Origin: Alphaproteobacteria bacterium
GTDB lineage: Bacteria; Pseudomonadota; Alphaproteobacteria; Bin65
Reading direction: 5' to 3'
Length of the DNA: 64,000 nucleotides
NCBI GenBank assembly: GCA_021776685.1
Contig: JAJFFJ010000039.1
Span: 1 to 64,000 of the forward strand
Shown: positions 10,180 to 17,759 of the stretch, piece by piece
Layout of the letters: every line of letters starts with the position of its first letter
Numbering within the stretch: the stretch's first letter is position 1
The notes under the pieces: generated by a model
Databases searched by the model: none
The model's input: the letters and a program-made list of their open reading frames with translations, nothing else
Told to the model about the DNA's origin: nothing
Program-made: the position numbers and the translations under genes

Positions 10180-11346
10180 CTAATAAGACTTCGGCAGACC
10201 CAAAACACGTTCACCGATGTGGGAGAGGATGAGCTCCCGGGATACCGGCGCGATCCGGCAGATCATCACTTCACGCAGCAACCGCTCCACGTGGAACTCC
10301 TTGGCATAACCCATACCACCATGTGCCAGGATCGCCCGCTCACAGGCTTGGAACCCCGCTTCACCGGCCAGATATTTGGCGGCATTGCATTCCGGACCAC
10401 AGGGCTGTCCCTGGTCATATAGCCAGGTTGCACGCAGGGTTGCGAGCCAGGCCCCTTCCAGCTCCGCCCAGCTTTGCGCAAGGGGATGCTGGACCGCCTG
10501 GTTCTGGCCAATAGGACGGCCGAAAACGATCCGTTCACCGGCATAGCGGGCGGCCCGCTCGATGGCCTGCTGGCCAACCCCCACCGCCTCCGCCGCGATC
10601 AGGCACCGCTCCGGATTCATACCGTGCAAGATGGCGGCGAAGCCCTGGCCCTCCTCACCAATGCGGTCTTCGACCGGAACCCGCAGGCCATCGATGAAGA
10701 GCGAGTTTGAATCCACTGCTGCCCTGCCCATCTTCGGAATCTCTGTGACCTCAATCTGGTTTCGGTCCAGATCCGTGAAGAACAGGGTCATCCCCTCGGT
10801 CGGCTTCGCGCATTCCTCACGGGGAGTGGTGCGGGCCAGCAACAACACCTTGTCGGCGACCTGTGCGGTCGAGGTCCAGATTTTCCGTCCATCGACCACA
10901 TAATGATCGCCGTCGCGCACGGCTTTGGTCTTGATGTTGGTGGTATCGAGGCCTGCATCCGGCTCCGTCACGGCAAAGCATGATTTGGTCCGGCCCTGGA
11001 TCAGATCGGGCAACCAGCGCAGTTGTTGCTCCGCCGTGCCGAACACGACGATGGGATGTGGTCCGAAGATATTCATATGGATGGAAGAGGAGGCGGCCAT
11101 GGCCCCGGGCGAGCGCGCCACCCGGTTCATCATCAGCGCCGCCTCGGTGACACCCAGGCCCGCGCCGCCAACAGCCTCTGGCATAGCGATGCCGAGCCAG
11201 CCGCCTTCTGCCATGGCTTGGTGAAAGTCGTGCGGGAACTCGCCGGTGCGGTCCCGGTCCAGCCAATAGGCCTCGTCGAACCCGGCGCAGATACGGTCAA
11301 TGCCGTCGACAATGCTGTCCTGGTCCGGGGTCAGCGCGAAATCCAT
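10180..11346 (-). CDS. Acyl-CoA dehydrogenase family protein
   Basis: A 388-residue flavoprotein of normal family length. Visible blocks are the FAD/substrate region (CFAVTEPDAGLDTTNIKT), the central beta domain with DGRKIWTSTAQVADKVLLLART, and the C-terminal helical domain with FGRPIGQNQAVQHPLAQSWAE and HGGMGYAKEFHVERLLRE. It should oxidise an acyl-CoA and pass electrons to ETF. The segment containing the catalytic base could not be assigned to a subfamily. It is a single gene on the minus strand, divergent from recQ. Confidence 0.88.
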   Translation of the reverse strand: MDFALTPDQDSIVDGIDRICAGFDEAYWLDRDRTGEFPHDFHQAMAEGGWLGIAMPEAVGGAGLGVTEAALMMNRVARSPGAMAASSSIHMNIFGPHPIVVFGTAEQQLRWLPDLIQGRTKSCFAVTEPDAGLDTTNIKTKAVRDGDHYVVDGRKIWTSTAQVADKVLLLARTTPREECAKPTEGMTLFFTDLDRNQIEVTEIPKMGRAAVDSNSLFIDGLRVPVEDRIGEEGQGFAAILHGMNPERCLIAAEAVGVGQQAIERAARYAGERIVFGRPIGQNQAVQHPLAQSWAELEGAWLATLRATWLYDQGQPCGPECNAAKYLAGEAGFQACERAILAHGGMGYAKEFHVERLLREVMICRIAPVSRELILSHIGERVLGLPKSY

Positions 11347-11390
11347 ATCTCTGTCTGCCTTGCTTGCGGCGGCGATGGTTGCACACCACT

Positions 11391-13241
11391 ATGGCGGCTC
11401 CGCCGGACGATGGTCCAGAGCTACATCCGCACCGAGAAGCCTTGAACACGTCACCCGAAGACATTCTGCGCACCACCTTCGGCTACGACTCCTTCCGCCT
11501 GGGACAGCAGGAGGTGATCGACACCGTGATCGCCGGCCAGAACGCGCTGGTGATTATGCCGACCGGCGGTGGCAAGTCGCTCTGCTACCAGGTGCCGGCG
11601 CTGGCAATGGCGGGCCTGACCGTCGTGGTCTCGCCGTTGATTGCGCTCATGCGCGACCAGGTGGCGGCGCTCAAGGCAAACGGGGTCGCTGCTGGCACGC
11701 TGAACAGTTCCACGCCACCGGAGGAAGCTTCCGCAGTTAATGCCGCATTGCGCGACGGTACCCTACGGCTCCTCTACCTGTCCCCTGAGCGGCTCTTGAT
11801 GGACGGGATGATCGAGCGGCTGCAGGGGCTCAAACCTGTTTTGTTCGCGGTGGATGAAGCCCATTGCGTCAGCCAGTGGGGCCATGATTTCCGGCAGGAC
11901 TATCTGCGACTGGCCGAGCTGAAGGACCTGTTCCCCGACACCCCGCGCATGGCCCTGACCGCCACCGCAGATGACCTGACCCGGCGGGATATTCTCGACA
12001 AACTGTTCGACGGCGACGCGGTGGAATTCACCTCCGGCTTCGACCGACCCAATATCCGACTGGGCATCACGCCCAAGAAGGCGGCCAAGCAGCAACTGCG
12101 CCGGTTTCTGGACACACATGCGGGGGAAAGCGGCATCGTCTATTGCCTGTCCCGCAAACGCTGCGAGGAAACAGCGTCCGAGCTGGCGGCGGACGGGTTG
12201 ACCGCCCTGCCCTATCACGCAGGCATGGCCAAGGCCGACCGTGACCGGCACCAGGATCGCTTCCTCACCGAAGACGGCGTCATCATCGTTGCAACCATCG
12301 CCTTTGGCATGGGCATCGACAAACCGGATGTGCGCTTTGTCTTCCACCTGAATGTTCCGGGCAACGTCGAGTCCTGGTATCAGGAACTGGGCCGGGCGGG
12401 CCGCGACGGCGCGCCGGCGGAAGCGTTGATGGTCTACGGCCTGGACGACATACGAATGCGCCGCGCCTTCATCGACGACTCGGAGCGGACGGACGAACAA
12501 AAGCGTTTCGAGCATCAGCGACTGAATGCACTGTTGGCGATTTGCGAGGCGGCCAGCTGCCGGCGTCAGGCGCTGCTGCGGTATTTCGGCGAAACAACAG
12601 AACCATGCGGCAACTGCGACCGCTGCCTCGCGCCTGTGGAGACCTTTGACGGCACGGAAGAAGCGCAGAAGGCCATGTCCGCTATCCTGCGCACGGGCCA
12701 GATGTTCGGCGCCGAGCATGTGATTGACGTGCTGACGGGCACGGAAACGGACAAGGTGAAAAAACGCGGGCATGACCGGTTGCCGACCTTTGGCGTCGGA
12801 TCCGACTGGCGGCGGCCTGAGTGGCGGTCCTTCATGCGCCAGCTGGCGGCGGCCGACCTGATCCGCGTGGATGTGGGCGGCTTTGGCGCGCTCAAACTGA
12901 CGGAGGCTGCACGGCCGATCCTGAAGGGCGCCGCCGAGGTACGCCTCCACAAGGAAGCCGAAGGGCAAAAGACCACGCGCAAGCGCGCATCATCGGTGAT
13001 GCCGGAGGCAACGCCTGCCGACGCCGCCCTGCTCGACCGCCTGCGTGACCTGCGTCGGGACATTGCGTCTGCCGAAGGTGTGCCAGCCTATGTGATCTTC
13101 CACGACCGCAGTCTCATCGACATGGCCGCCCGCAAGCCGCAGTCCATCGACGCTTTCAGCGACGTTCACGGTGTCGGGGAGGCCAAATTGGCGAAATACG
13201 GTGAGACCTTCATGGCCGCGATTCGGGCTGAAATCGCCTGA
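11391..13241 (+). CDS. recQ: ATP-dependent DNA helicase RecQ
   Basis: About 616 residues with the full RecQ order. Motif 0/I is FGYDSFRLGQQEVID plus Walker A MPTGGGKSLCYQ, motif II is VDEAHCVSQWGHDFR, and motifs V/VI are FGMGIDKPDVRFV and YQELGRAGRDG. The RQC zinc-binding cysteines are in CRRQALLRYFGE and CGNCDRC, and a C-terminal HRDC domain starts near DAALLDRLRDLRRDIA. It is a 3'-5' helicase in recombination and fork repair. The frame is open from 11364; the ATG at 11391 is chosen because residues before it are unlike the family. DUF6356 follows after 58 bp. Confidence 0.93.
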   Translation: MAAPPDDGPELHPHREALNTSPEDILRTTFGYDSFRLGQQEVIDTVIAGQNALVIMPTGGGKSLCYQVPALAMAGLTVVVSPLIALMRDQVAALKANGVAAGTLNSSTPPEEASAVNAALRDGTLRLLYLSPERLLMDGMIERLQGLKPVLFAVDEAHCVSQWGHDFRQDYLRLAELKDLFPDTPRMALTATADDLTRRDILDKLFDGDAVEFTSGFDRPNIRLGITPKKAAKQQLRRFLDTHAGESGIVYCLSRKRCEETASELAADGLTALPYHAGMAKADRDRHQDRFLTEDGVIIVATIAFGMGIDKPDVRFVFHLNVPGNVESWYQELGRAGRDGAPAEALMVYGLDDIRMRRAFIDDSERTDEQKRFEHQRLNALLAICEAASCRRQALLRYFGETTEPCGNCDRCLAPVETFDGTEEAQKAMSAILRTGQMFGAEHVIDVLTGTETDKVKKRGHDRLPTFGVGSDWRRPEWRSFMRQLAAADLIRVDVGGFGALKLTEAARPILKGAAEVRLHKEAEGQKTTRKRASSVMPEATPADAALLDRLRDLRRDIASAEGVPAYVIFHDRSLIDMAARKPQSIDAFSDVHGVGEAKLAKYGETFMAAIRAEIA

Positions 13242-13299
13242 CCAATCGGCGTAAGGTGGCCAACGCTTTATCCGGAGCCGTTTAGCAGGAGTGATTTCC

Positions 13300-13518
13300 A
13301 TGATCGCGCGTCTCTTTACGGAACACCCGAAGTCCGTGGGCGAGACCTATTGGCAGCATCTGGGCACAGCCCTTGGTGTGTGGGCGCGTCTCTGTCTGGC
13401 GAGCGCCACCGTGTTCATCCACGCCTTCCTGCCATTCCTGTTTCCCACAACCGGCAGCCGAATTCTGAAACGCCTGTTGGCGGAACGGGATGCGCCGGAC
13501 CGGGGGAAGCGGACATGA
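13300..13518 (+). CDS. DUF6356 family small membrane protein
   Basis: A 72-residue protein beginning MIARLFTEHPKSVGETYWQH, the DUF6356 signature, followed by one or two hydrophobic helices (roughly residues 23-48) and FPTTGSRILKRLL. An AGGAG 8 bp upstream points to the ATG at 13300 rather than the GTG at 13291. Its stop overlaps the start of the reductive-dehalogenase-like gene by 4 bp (ATGA), so the two are translationally coupled. No function is known for the family. A role as a small membrane partner of the downstream iron-sulfur protein is inference only. Confidence 0.78.
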   Translation: MIARLFTEHPKSVGETYWQHLGTALGVWARLCLASATVFIHAFLPFLFPTTGSRILKRLLAERDAPDRGKRT

Positions 13519-14798
13519 GCCCGAAATCACCGCCGGGCGTCGTCTCCATCGACGGCAGCTGGAAACGCGCTGAAGGCGCGGCGGAACCAGAAGCCGTAGA
13601 CGCCACACCTTCGATCAGACGCAATCGCATCGAGCCCCACCGGGATATCGACAAATTGACCGGCTTCGAGATCGGCGACGACTTCACGCCGTTCGATCAG
13701 AAAAACGACGTCTTCAGCCGCGCCAACTGGGACGAGAATGTGCGCTCCGACAAGGCGCTGGAATTTTGGGCGGCCTACATCATGCCCAATGCCCGCGCCC
13801 GCAAGGCAGATGGCTACTCCCAACGGGACTACGCCCTCCGCAACGCGGCATGGCACTTCACAAAAGCCTTTGCGACGCTGAAGACCGGCAGCGAGGGGCG
13901 GCACGAAGGCTTCAACGACACCTTCACGCTGCATGGCCCGGGCTGGCCCGAAAAGTGGGACATGGGCGACCCTGCGGAGACGTCAAAAGACATCAAGAAA
14001 GTGGCCCGGCTGTTCGGCGCGGACGATGTGGGCATTTGCGACTATGACCCCCGCTGGGTGTACGCGACCAAGTTCAACCGGCTGGACCAATCCTCCCGAC
14101 CGCCGGATGTGGATGACAGCCTGACCCACGTGATCGTCACCATCACCGCCATGGACCTTGATCTGACCGCGACGGTGCCATCGGCCCTGGCCGCGACCGC
14201 TACGGGCATGGGCTACACCATGGACGCGGTGACGCTCATGTCACTTGCGCAGTATATCCGCAACCTGGGCTACAACGCCCATGCCAGCATGAATGATACG
14301 GCCCTCAACATCCCTTTGGCCGTACAGGCGGGGCTCGGTGAATACGGCCGGCATGGCCTTCTGATCACCAAGGACTTCGGCCCGCGGGTGCGCATCGGCA
14401 AGATATTCACGGACATGCCGCTGGCGCCGGACCAGCCGACCTCGTTCGGCGTCACCGAATTCTGCAACATGTGTCAGGCCTGCGCGGCCGGCTGCCCGCC
14501 CAAGGCAATTCCTTTCGACAAGCCCAAAAACGATCCACCCAATTTTTCCAGTTTCTCCACCATCAGGAAATGGACCACGGACGCGGAGAAATGCTTCAAG
14601 TTTTGGACCGCCCAAAACACCGAATGTTCCATCTGCATCCGCGTCTGCCCTTACAACCGGTCGTTCAAGAGCCGGTGGGACAAACTCTGGCGGTGGCTTG
14701 CTGGCACGCGCCTGCGGCGGTTGGCGCTCTGGCTCGACCGCTTCCGGGAAGGCGGCCGCCGCAATGCGGCAGGCTGGTGGCTGGGCAAGTCCGAATAG
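13515..14798 (+). CDS. Reductive-dehalogenase-family iron-sulfur/corrinoid protein
   Basis: A 427-residue protein with the two ferredoxin-type motifs of reductive dehalogenases: C-x2-C-x2-C-x3-CP (FCNMCQACAAGCPPKAI) and C-x2-C-x3-CP (CSICIRVCPYN). The preceding corrinoid-domain pattern (YIRNLGYNAH, then IPLAVQAGLGEYGRHGLLITKDFGP, then TDMPLAPDQPTSFG) is also family-typical. There is no twin-arginine signal, so it should be cytoplasmic, unlike respiratory enzymes. It lacks the ferredoxin-reductase extension of catabolic NpRdhA-type enzymes. It starts by ATGA overlap with DUF6356. Dehalogenation, epoxide reduction or another corrinoid reaction are all possible. Confidence 0.82.
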   Translation: MSPKSPPGVVSIDGSWKRAEGAAEPEAVDATPSIRRNRIEPHRDIDKLTGFEIGDDFTPFDQKNDVFSRANWDENVRSDKALEFWAAYIMPNARARKADGYSQRDYALRNAAWHFTKAFATLKTGSEGRHEGFNDTFTLHGPGWPEKWDMGDPAETSKDIKKVARLFGADDVGICDYDPRWVYATKFNRLDQSSRPPDVDDSLTHVIVTITAMDLDLTATVPSALAATATGMGYTMDAVTLMSLAQYIRNLGYNAHASMNDTALNIPLAVQAGLGEYGRHGLLITKDFGPRVRIGKIFTDMPLAPDQPTSFGVTEFCNMCQACAAGCPPKAIPFDKPKNDPPNFSSFSTIRKWTTDAEKCFKFWTAQNTECSICIRVCPYNRSFKSRWDKLWRWLAGTRLRRLALWLDRFREGGRRNAAGWWLGKSE

Positions 14799-14822
14799 CC
14801 CGCAGCGCCGATTGCTTCAGCC

Positions 14823-16154
14823 ATGTCACCGCCCGTCACCCCTGTTGCCCCTGACTCGTCGCTGCCAGCGGCGGCCGACGTGGTCGTCATTGGCGGTGGC
14901 ATCATTGGCGTCAGCGCCGCCTGGCACCTGGCGAAACAAGGCATCTCCGTCGCGCTTTGCGAAAAAGGCGTCATCGGCGGCGAACAATCTTCCCGCAACT
15001 GGGGCTATTGCCGCCAACAGGGCCGGGACCCTGCAGAACTGCCCCTGATCATCGATAGCCTGCGCATCTGGCGCGGCATCGAGGCGGAGATTGGCGAGAA
15101 GGTCGGCTTTGTCCAAGGCGGCGTGCTCTATGCGACCGACGACCCGGAGCAACTCGCAAACTATGAGAGCTGGCTGGACCATGGCCGCCAGTACCAGATT
15201 GACACACGGGTGTTGGACCGCCGCGGGCTGGAGGACGTCGTCACCGACCCGCCCGCCCACTGGATTGGCGGTCTCTATACCGCCAGCGATGGCCGCGCGG
15301 AGCCCGCGCTCGCAGCGCCGGCCATCGCGCGGGCCGCCCAGCGGGCCGGCGCCACCATTCATACGGGCTGCGCCGCACGCGGCCTGAACTTCCAGGGCGG
15401 CCGGGTTGCAGGCGTCGCGACCGAGCAGGGCGAGATCCGCACCAACACGGTGATCTGCGCCGGTGGCGCCTGGGCGGGCTTGTTCTGCAAGCGCCATGGT
15501 GTTGCCTTGCCCCAGCTTGCGGTGCGCGCCTCGGTTCAGCGCACGACAGCTGCCCCGGAGATCTTCACCGGCGGCATGTCAGCCCCGGGCTTTTCCATCC
15601 GCAGGCGAACCGATGGCGGCTACACCCTTGCAGAGGGCGAATCACACGTCTTCCACCTGACGCCGGACGCCTTCCGCTGGTTCCGCGCCTTCCAGCCGCT
15701 CTACAAGCCGCAGAAGGCGCACACTCACATCCGCTTCGGCTGGCCCTTCTTCGAAGCGCTGTTCACCCGCACGCGCTGGCCGCTGGATGGACCAAGCCCT
15801 TTCGAGGACATGCGGGTGCTTGACCCGAAGCCAGATCACCAGTTCCTCGACCGGGCCATAGCCAAATTCAAGGCGGCGTTTCCGGTGATGCAGGACGTTG
15901 GCGTGGCAGAACGGTGGGCCGGCATGATCGACGTGACGCCGGATGAGCGGGCGGTGATCAGCCCGGTGGAGGCGCTGCCCGGCTTCTATCTGGCCGCCGG
16001 TTTCAGCGGCCACGGATTCGGCATCGGCCCCGCCGCCGGCAAGCTGGCGGCGGAACTGGCCACCGGCGCGGCCACAACTGTCGACCCCACACCTTTCCGG
16101 CTTGACCGTTTCTTCAGTCAATCAGCGCCGCGGGGCAGCAGCAAAACGCGATAG
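14823..16154 (+). CDS. FAD-dependent oxidoreductase (DAO/glycine oxidase type)
   Basis: A 443-residue flavoprotein with an N-terminal Rossmann motif VVVIGGGIIGVSAAWHLAKQG (residues 20-40) and the adenine-binding ALCEKGVIGGEQSSRNWG. The C-terminal GFYLAAGFSGHGFGIGPAAGKLAAELATG is typical of D-amino-acid and glycine oxidases and sarcosine-oxidase-like enzymes. It probably oxidises an amine or amino acid. It starts 24 bp after the dehalogenase-like gene. Its last 37 bp overlap, tail to tail, the double VOC gene on the other strand. The substrate is unknown. Confidence 0.85.
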   Translation: MSPPVTPVAPDSSLPAAADVVVIGGGIIGVSAAWHLAKQGISVALCEKGVIGGEQSSRNWGYCRQQGRDPAELPLIIDSLRIWRGIEAEIGEKVGFVQGGVLYATDDPEQLANYESWLDHGRQYQIDTRVLDRRGLEDVVTDPPAHWIGGLYTASDGRAEPALAAPAIARAAQRAGATIHTGCAARGLNFQGGRVAGVATEQGEIRTNTVICAGGAWAGLFCKRHGVALPQLAVRASVQRTTAAPEIFTGGMSAPGFSIRRRTDGGYTLAEGESHVFHLTPDAFRWFRAFQPLYKPQKAHTHIRFGWPFFEALFTRTRWPLDGPSPFEDMRVLDPKPDHQFLDRAIAKFKAAFPVMQDVGVAERWAGMIDVTPDERAVISPVEALPGFYLAAGFSGHGFGIGPAAGKLAAELATGAATTVDPTPFRLDRFFSQSAPRGSSKTR

Positions 16155-16930
16155 CCGTCCGGGTCGCGCGTTTCCTCGATTGCCGACACATCCGCCGTAA
16201 AGGCGACGCCCCAGAACCCGCCGCCGGCGTCTACGCCGGTTTGAAAATATTCCGGTTCATCCCACCGGTGCTGCAGCTCCAGGGTCGTATACGGACGCTG
16301 CCACAACCACTCCCGATTGCTCACCGCGTCGATGTCAGGATCCGGTGGCCTCTCGTCGGTGGCGGCGAGAAAGTAGAGGGTGAAGCGGTGATCGGCCACC
16401 TCCTGACGAGACAACAGGGTCATGCCGAGACGGTCTCGATAGAAGCTCAGGCTGGCATCAATATCGCGCACGCGTAGAGTTACCTGCCCCAGCGTTGCAG
16501 ACTGGCCCAGGGGAAAATCAGGGTCCGGGTCGATCGGCACATGGTTTTCAGCGAATCGGTGCTGCAACAGCTCTATGACAAATCCATCCGGATCGGTCAG
16601 ATGGCAGAGATAGCCGATGTCGAGAAACTGCCGGGGAACGCTGACCTCTATTCCTGCCGCAACCAATTGCGCCCTCGCCAAATCAACATCGGCGAGGGTA
16701 ATCCCGATTTTCCAGTAGCCGTCGTCGGGTTCCGCGCCAAAGACGCCTTCGCCGCCACCGCGGCGCAATTCCAGACCTGACGCACCACCGTAGCTCATTT
16801 GCGTGATCTCGGAGCCAGAGCCCGATATCTCAAACATGCCAAGGAGATCCCTATAGAAGGCGATACTCCGGTCAATATTGCGGACGCGCAGGATGTTGGC
16901 GGACAATTGGGCCGGTCGGTCTGCCTTCAT
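16118..16930 (-). CDS. Double-module VOC family protein
   Basis: About 270 residues with two VOC modules. The first opens with LSANILRVRNIDRSIAFYRDLLGM and closes with DPDGFVIELLQHRF. The second opens with LGQVTLRVRDIDASLSFYRDRLGM and closes with DPDGYRVLLLPRGA. The final Glu ligand of the second module appears replaced (YRVLLL), so a single metal site or none is possible. An upstream ATG at 16948 is also in frame. The 5' end faces the alpha/beta hydrolase gene head to head and the 3' end overlaps the FAD oxidoreductase gene by 37 bp. Confidence 0.78.
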   Translation of the reverse strand: MKADRPAQLSANILRVRNIDRSIAFYRDLLGMFEISGSGSEITQMSYGGASGLELRRGGGEGVFGAEPDDGYWKIGITLADVDLARAQLVAAGIEVSVPRQFLDIGYLCHLTDPDGFVIELLQHRFAENHVPIDPDPDFPLGQSATLGQVTLRVRDIDASLSFYRDRLGMTLLSRQEVADHRFTLYFLAATDERPPDPDIDAVSNREWLWQRPYTTLELQHRWDEPEYFQTGVDAGGGFWGVAFTADVSAIEETRDPDGYRVLLLPRGAD

Positions 16931-17759
16931 GCTTGCTGGACTCGCCATCGCTACCCGCCTATCTCGTCATGCTGAAACATATGGAAAGAGACATCCTTTG
17001 CTTGCCAGTGGTGACAATCCAAACCTTGTGCTGATTCACGGCTCGCCCGGCAACGCGCAAACATGGAAAGGCGTCGCCGACCGGTTGGAAGGGTACCGCA
17101 CGGTCGTCTCCCCAAGCTATCTGGATGACATCGACCCCGCGGTGCCGCTGCCAACAATAGACGTTGCCCGCACCATTGAAGCCACCTGGCCTGCTGGAGA
17201 CCCGCCGCTTGTGGTCGGCCATTCTTACGGCAGCAACGTTGCGCTGCACATCGCATTCGGAGGCAACGTGTCGGTCGGAGCGCTGATTTTGCTTGAGCCG
17301 GTAGCCATGCGGGTGCTGGTTGCCCTGGGCCGCGACGCGCAATTCGCACCGATGGAGGCGGCGTTCACCGACTATCTGGCGCAGGTCGACGCGAAGGCCC
17401 CTGACGCCGTGACGACCATGGTCGACTTCTGGTTTGGCCGGGGCGCATTCGGCAAAATGCCACCACCTATGCAGGACTTTCTCCGCACGCAGACCCCCAC
17501 CAACGCGGTCAATGTCCGTGCCTCTTTCGAGGAGCGGTATGACGCCGGCGCCTTGAAGGCGTTGACCATGCCGGCGCTGGTTGCATGGGGCGGGGCCAGC
17601 CCATCGGAGAACCATCATGTTGCAGCCGGCGTCGCCGACGCCCTTGGCAACGCGGAGCTTGTCTGTATCGATGGCGCCACCCACGCCATGCCCCAGACCC
17701 ACCCGGCAGAGATTGCAGCTCTGATCGAGGATATGGCCAATTTTCTGCGGCCGGACTAA
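16929..17759 (+). CDS. Alpha/beta hydrolase
   Basis: Up to 276 residues of an alpha/beta-hydrolase. The oxyanion strand LVLIHGSPGNAQTWKG, nucleophile elbow VVGHSYGSNVAL and C-terminal GATHAMPQTHP histidine are present. The start is uncertain: the ATG at 16929 lies opposite the start of the divergent VOC gene, while a TTG near 17008 with a purine-rich GGAAAGAGA upstream would give a more compact protein starting just before the first strand. It is followed within about 20 bp by the SDR gene and probably begins that operon. The substrate is not recognisable. Confidence 0.78.
   Translation: MLAGLAIATRLSRHAETYGKRHPLLASGDNPNLVLIHGSPGNAQTWKGVADRLEGYRTVVSPSYLDDIDPAVPLPTIDVARTIEATWPAGDPPLVVGHSYGSNVALHIAFGGNVSVGALILLEPVAMRVLVALGRDAQFAPMEAAFTDYLAQVDAKAPDAVTTMVDFWFGRGAFGKMPPPMQDFLRTQTPTNAVNVRASFEERYDAGALKALTMPALVAWGGASPSENHHVAAGVADALGNAELVCIDGATHAMPQTHPAEIAALIEDMANFLRPD

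Follow-up and report, generated by a model that had tools for sequence, protein, structure and literature searches.

A likely cytosolic reductive dehalogenase and its presumably incidental DUF6356 neighbor gene in an alphaproteobacterial genome

Within the window, i.e., the 64,000-nucleotide stretch of contig JAJFFJ010000039.1 (Alphaproteobacteria bacterium, assembly GCA_021776685.1) analyzed here, the gene of a small protein overlaps the start of a gene for a reductive dehalogenase family protein. The first-pass annotation had suggested that this arrangement could be a soluble enzyme coupled to an independent analogue of the membrane anchor RdhB, and perhaps a new aerobic class. The locus hence raises two questions, i.e., what kind of enzyme is encoded and whether the two genes belong together.

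The two-gene observation itself held. A DUF6356 protein of 72 amino acids (13300–13518, + strand; PF19883, E 6.5e-24, one hydrophobic segment) and a reductive dehalogenase family protein of 427 amino acids (13515–14798, + strand; TIGR02486, PF13486, Fer4_16) have 4 bp in common at their junction, GACATGAGC. Position 13300 marks the start of DUF6356 and not that of the enzyme, whose gene runs from an ATG at 13515 to a stop ending at 14798. We accepted this ATG because the similarity of the two closest orthologues begins at residue 1. Upstream, a RecQ helicase gene (11364–13241, + strand; Pfam DEAD, Helicase_C, Zn-binding, RQC and HRDC) ends 58 bp before DUF6356 and sits between an acyl-CoA dehydrogenase gene (10180–11346, − strand; Pfam) and the dehalogenase gene. 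Downstream, the gene of an FAD-dependent amino-acid-oxidase-like (DAO) protein (14823–16154, + strand; Pfam DAO, E 2.1e-70) begins on that strand too, 25 bp past the end of the dehalogenase gene, and the two are possibly co-transcribed. A scan of positions 11000–17000 gave no sigma-70-like promoter site, and no dedicated electron donor for the dehalogenase was found encoded nearby.

The window enzyme scored above the cut-offs of the NCBIfam model TIGR02486 'reductive dehalogenase' (183.1 bits, cut-off 160.35), of PF13486 (26.3 bits, cut-off 24.3) and of Pfam Fer4_16, and below that of the QueG model TIGR00276 (69.8 bits, cut-off 200). It carries two [4Fe-4S] cluster motifs, CNMCQACAAGCP at residues 317–328 (14463–14498, + strand) and CSICIRVCP at residues 371–379 (14625–14651, + strand), and the cluster cysteines were invariant in a 35-row alignment. 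Y234 (codon 14214–14216), N260 (14292–14294) and R293 (14391–14393, all + strand) aligned to the catalytic Tyr246, to Asn272 and to Arg305 of the PceA active site. These three columns were invariant in the same alignment and in 107 sequences of the clade described below. Neither a Tat signal (no RRxF motif, no hydrophobic N-terminus) nor, according to Pfam, a reductase or other extra domain was present in the window enzyme. Profiles and motifs thus support the earlier description of a soluble-type enzyme with an RdhA core and both iron-sulfur motifs. Among solved structures, PceA was nearest by sequence, followed by NpRdhA and then QueG. An AlphaFold model built from a 35-sequence alignment (pLDDT 84.8) matched PceA (8q4h_A) with a Z-score of 41.1 over 371 residues; Z-scores were 32 to NpRdhA and 15 to QueG.

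In a maximum-likelihood tree built quickly from 123 sequences, the window enzyme fell inside a clade of about 105 sampled sequences without Tat signals (an open fork, SH-aLRT 94) from Alpha- and Gammaproteobacteria, Bacteroidota, Chloroflexota, Deinococcota and Acidobacteriota; no Tat signal was found in 106 clade members. The clade joined PceA, a Dehalococcoides RdhA and a Lokiarchaeal protein (SH-aLRT 98) and was separate from the BhbA branch (SH-aLRT 99) and from QueG (99). Phylogeny hence puts the enzyme on the same side of the family as PceA, apart from NpRdhA/BhbA and QueG, with a deep branching order that is provisional because the tree has several long branches. PceA (Sulfurospirillum / Desulfitobacterium) occupies the adjoining branch, has the catalytic Tyr/Asn/Arg in common with the window enzyme and resembles it in fold (Z 37–41, 30–31% identity). 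In contrast to the window enzyme, which lacks both a Tat signal and any PceB-like partner, PceA is Tat-exported and paired with PceB. The catabolic dehalogenases NpRdhA, BhbA and JtRdhA also lack a Tat signal and have the same core fold (Z 31–32), yet they form a separate branch (SH-aLRT 99) outside of which the window enzyme falls, and they comprise about 700–1100 amino acids with vestigial or reductase domains, compared with 427 in the window enzyme. The NpRdhA site is of the Tyr/Lys/Arg type (Y426, K488, R552; PMC10463259), whereas that of the window enzyme is Tyr/Asn/Arg. The epoxyqueuosine reductase QueG has the cobalamin/4Fe-4S core in common with the window enzyme (Z about 15); the window genome encodes its own, distinct QueG on contig C132. 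No close characterized relative was found on plasmids, where the best dehalogenase matches were about 27–32% identical.

As to the suggestion of a new class, a Tat-less protein of Roseobacter sp. MED193, Ros_A3X954, was expressed in a 2026 study and converted 2,6-dibromophenol to 2-bromophenol (PMC13101508). Its published iron-sulfur motifs are CDICTKCADACP at residues 283–294 and CAICMRVCP at 337–345, and the purified protein lost its activity on exposure to oxygen (PMC13101508). Two sequences, L165 and L166, both fell inside the clade of the window enzyme in the quick tree, and L165, which is 48% identical to the window enzyme, has CDICTKCADACP at 283 and CAICMRVCP at 337. Because L165 carries the published letters at the published positions, the clade very probably already contains an assayed member, Ros_A3X954 being matched here by its motifs only. 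Like the window enzyme, Ros_A3X954 has no Tat signal, no reductase domain and a PF13486 core, and its motif spacing of 54 residues is the same; the window enzyme differs from it in a longer N-terminus (first cysteine at residue 317) and in other motif letters. We conclude that the window enzyme is a further member of a known, widespread cytosolic dehalogenase family and not a new class. Close members were found in 16 of 387 genomes in an even sample of the class.

We propose as the likely reading that the product of 13515–14798 is a reductive dehalogenase that depends on cobalamin, resides in the cytosol and probably acts on ortho-halogenated phenols, with DUF6356 as an incidental neighbor. 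By homology with PceA and NpRdhA, low-potential electrons would flow through the two [4Fe-4S] clusters to a corrinoid in its base-off form, which would be reduced to Co(I) and attack the substrate; Tyr234, together with Asn260 and Arg293, would donate a proton, and halide would be released. Substrates would likely be ortho-halogenated phenols or related aromatics. The probable electron donor would be a housekeeping ferredoxin or flavodoxin reductase whose gene lies elsewhere. Cobalamin supply is plausible in the window genome, where CobS was found in two places along with six B12-binding-domain matches. De novo synthesis is uncertain, because the window genome gave no match to the aerobic-type CobN, and cobalamin may be salvaged.

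The neighborhoods of clade members contained no conserved redox or membrane partner. The neighbor seen most often, at 18 loci, was an AMP-binding acyl-CoA synthetase. Other neighbors, such as transporters, DadA-like oxidases and ornithine cyclodeaminase, followed lineages; all these names were read from the sequence, not from profile matches. The DadA-like oxidases occur near relatives in one lineage and may be compared with the DAO gene at 14823–16154. A halotyrosine substrate, suggested by aromatic-amino-acid-permease-like neighbors at eight loci and by the window DAO gene, was considered and is too weak to claim.

QueG shows that the same fold supports chemistry other than dehalogenation. 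With this precedent, the window enzyme could be a reductase with B12 and iron-sulfur clusters that shares this fold but acts on a non-halogenated substrate, e.g., on an epoxide, an ether or a hydroxyl group. Most clade members are unassayed and take their family name from models, and their lineage-dependent neighbors point to no clear pathway. However, none of the three catalytic residues of PceA varies in the sampled clade, whereas the corresponding columns read Y-G-F in the QueG of the window genome and the third is F in E. coli QueG. Moreover, the motifs of a proven debrominase (PMC13101508) recur in a member of the clade. We hence regard a non-halogenated substrate as rather unlikely.

We then compared the occurrence and linkage of the two genes, with the genus of the window represented by one genome in the linkage comparison. 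The small protein is a clear DUF6356 member (84.3 bits against PF19883, cut-off 24.4). Were it a true membrane tether, i.e., an independent RdhB analogue, the 4-bp overlap on the same strand would provide translational coupling and equal dosage, and its hydrophobic segment and the retention of this second copy in frame would fit such a role. DUF6356 was also more common in genomes that carry the enzyme (10/16) than in others (75/371, P 0.0004), but this co-occurrence weakened to P 0.058 once the window's own family was removed. Moreover, just 10 of the 85 genomes with DUF6356 among the 387 of the class sample carried the enzyme, and nowhere in this sample were the two genes adjacent outside the window. 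The nearest orthologues of the window enzyme, in genomes G008 (75% identical) and G010 (73%), had no adjoining DUF6356, and among 131 loci searched it was found only in the window's own genome. In G008, an acyl-CoA dehydrogenase gene (78% identical) lies divergent to the dehalogenase gene as in the window, with neither RecQ nor DUF6356 between them; the DAO gene is absent beside the G008 dehalogenase, the only orthologue with both flanks. The G008 orthologue of the window DUF6356 (59% identical, with the segment HAFLPFLFPTTGSRILKRLL in common) is found on contig C344 beside unrelated genes. Because this close relative has both genes lying apart, DUF6356 is not a conserved partner of the enzyme.

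The small protein also differs from RdhB itself. No alignment to PceB or to D. mccartyi RdhB was detectable. These two RdhB proteins have two to three hydrophobic segments, compared with one in DUF6356, and carry a GSYxExEP motif, which is absent from DUF6356; their genes lie downstream of rdhA, whereas DUF6356 lies upstream of the dehalogenase gene. Instead, DUF6356 has a conserved neighbor of its own, adjoining an AsnC/Lrp regulator gene at 33 of 34 loci: 28 of the 29 that were sampled, those of four further genomes from the same family, and the other copy in the window genome (contig C119). The window DUF6356 is a second, divergent copy in its genome, away from this usual neighbor.

Linkage, topology and sequence thus rule against an RdhB analogue. 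The two genes were side by side at no other locus examined, the outcome that the first-pass annotation had itself named as a refutation of the pair. A tether of general kind is accordingly very unlikely. We hold it equally unlikely that, in this lineage alone, a duplicated and relocated DUF6356 was recruited as a tether that is coupled to the Tat-less enzyme in translation and keeps it at the inner membrane face. We judge DUF6356 to be an incidental, lineage-specific neighbor rather than a conserved partner or anchor, i.e., a duplicated small membrane protein whose gene, in this lineage, would have ended up overlapping that of the enzyme. Among the papers searched, one mentioned DUF6356, as a list entry. 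Its conserved pairing with AsnC/Lrp could offer a first clue to its function.

The window enzyme could also be a non-functional respiratory RdhA whose Tat signal has been lost. Its grouping on the PceA side agrees with this reading, which is nevertheless scarcely credible, given an intact reading frame, the retention of every cluster cysteine and active-site residue, and the absence of Tat signals from the whole clade of 106.

The idea of a new two-gene module, which would have been of greater consequence, is removed by the comparative evidence. If the assignment as a cytosolic dehalogenase is true, such enzymes on the PceA side span Alpha- and Gammaproteobacteria, Bacteroidota and Chloroflexota, with many recorded as marine, and they could help to turn over bromo- and iodophenols of natural origin independently of organohalide respiration.

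More notable than the pair is the unusual number of homologues of the reductive dehalogenase/QueG superfamily in the window genome, i.e., 17, found on contigs C91, C97, C45 (two), C136, C67, C157, C140 (two), C71, C135, C8, C132, C96 (two) and C50 (two). Four of these are close to the window enzyme (itself included), one is NpRdhA-like and one is QueG. On contig C45 (1225–3532), two close dehalogenase paralogues that are 82% identical stand in tandem, the upstream one being cut by the end of the 3.5-kb contig. Two further tandem pairs, C96:299415–301083 and C50:10280–11580, encode distant QueG/RDH-like proteins (L021–L024), each pair consisting of two different but related subunits; the C96 pair scored below both family cut-offs. 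Several shorter paralogues of about 325–400 amino acids (L013, L015, L016, L018 and L019, on contigs C67, C140, C71, C135 and C8) possibly form a separate, undescribed subfamily. In most of them, an N-x-(I/V)-N-G-L-G motif is present in the N-terminal part and 45 residues separate the cluster motifs, and in most a glycine replaces the Asn of PceA; the three that were scored reached 113–118 bits, below the TIGR02486 cut-off of 160.
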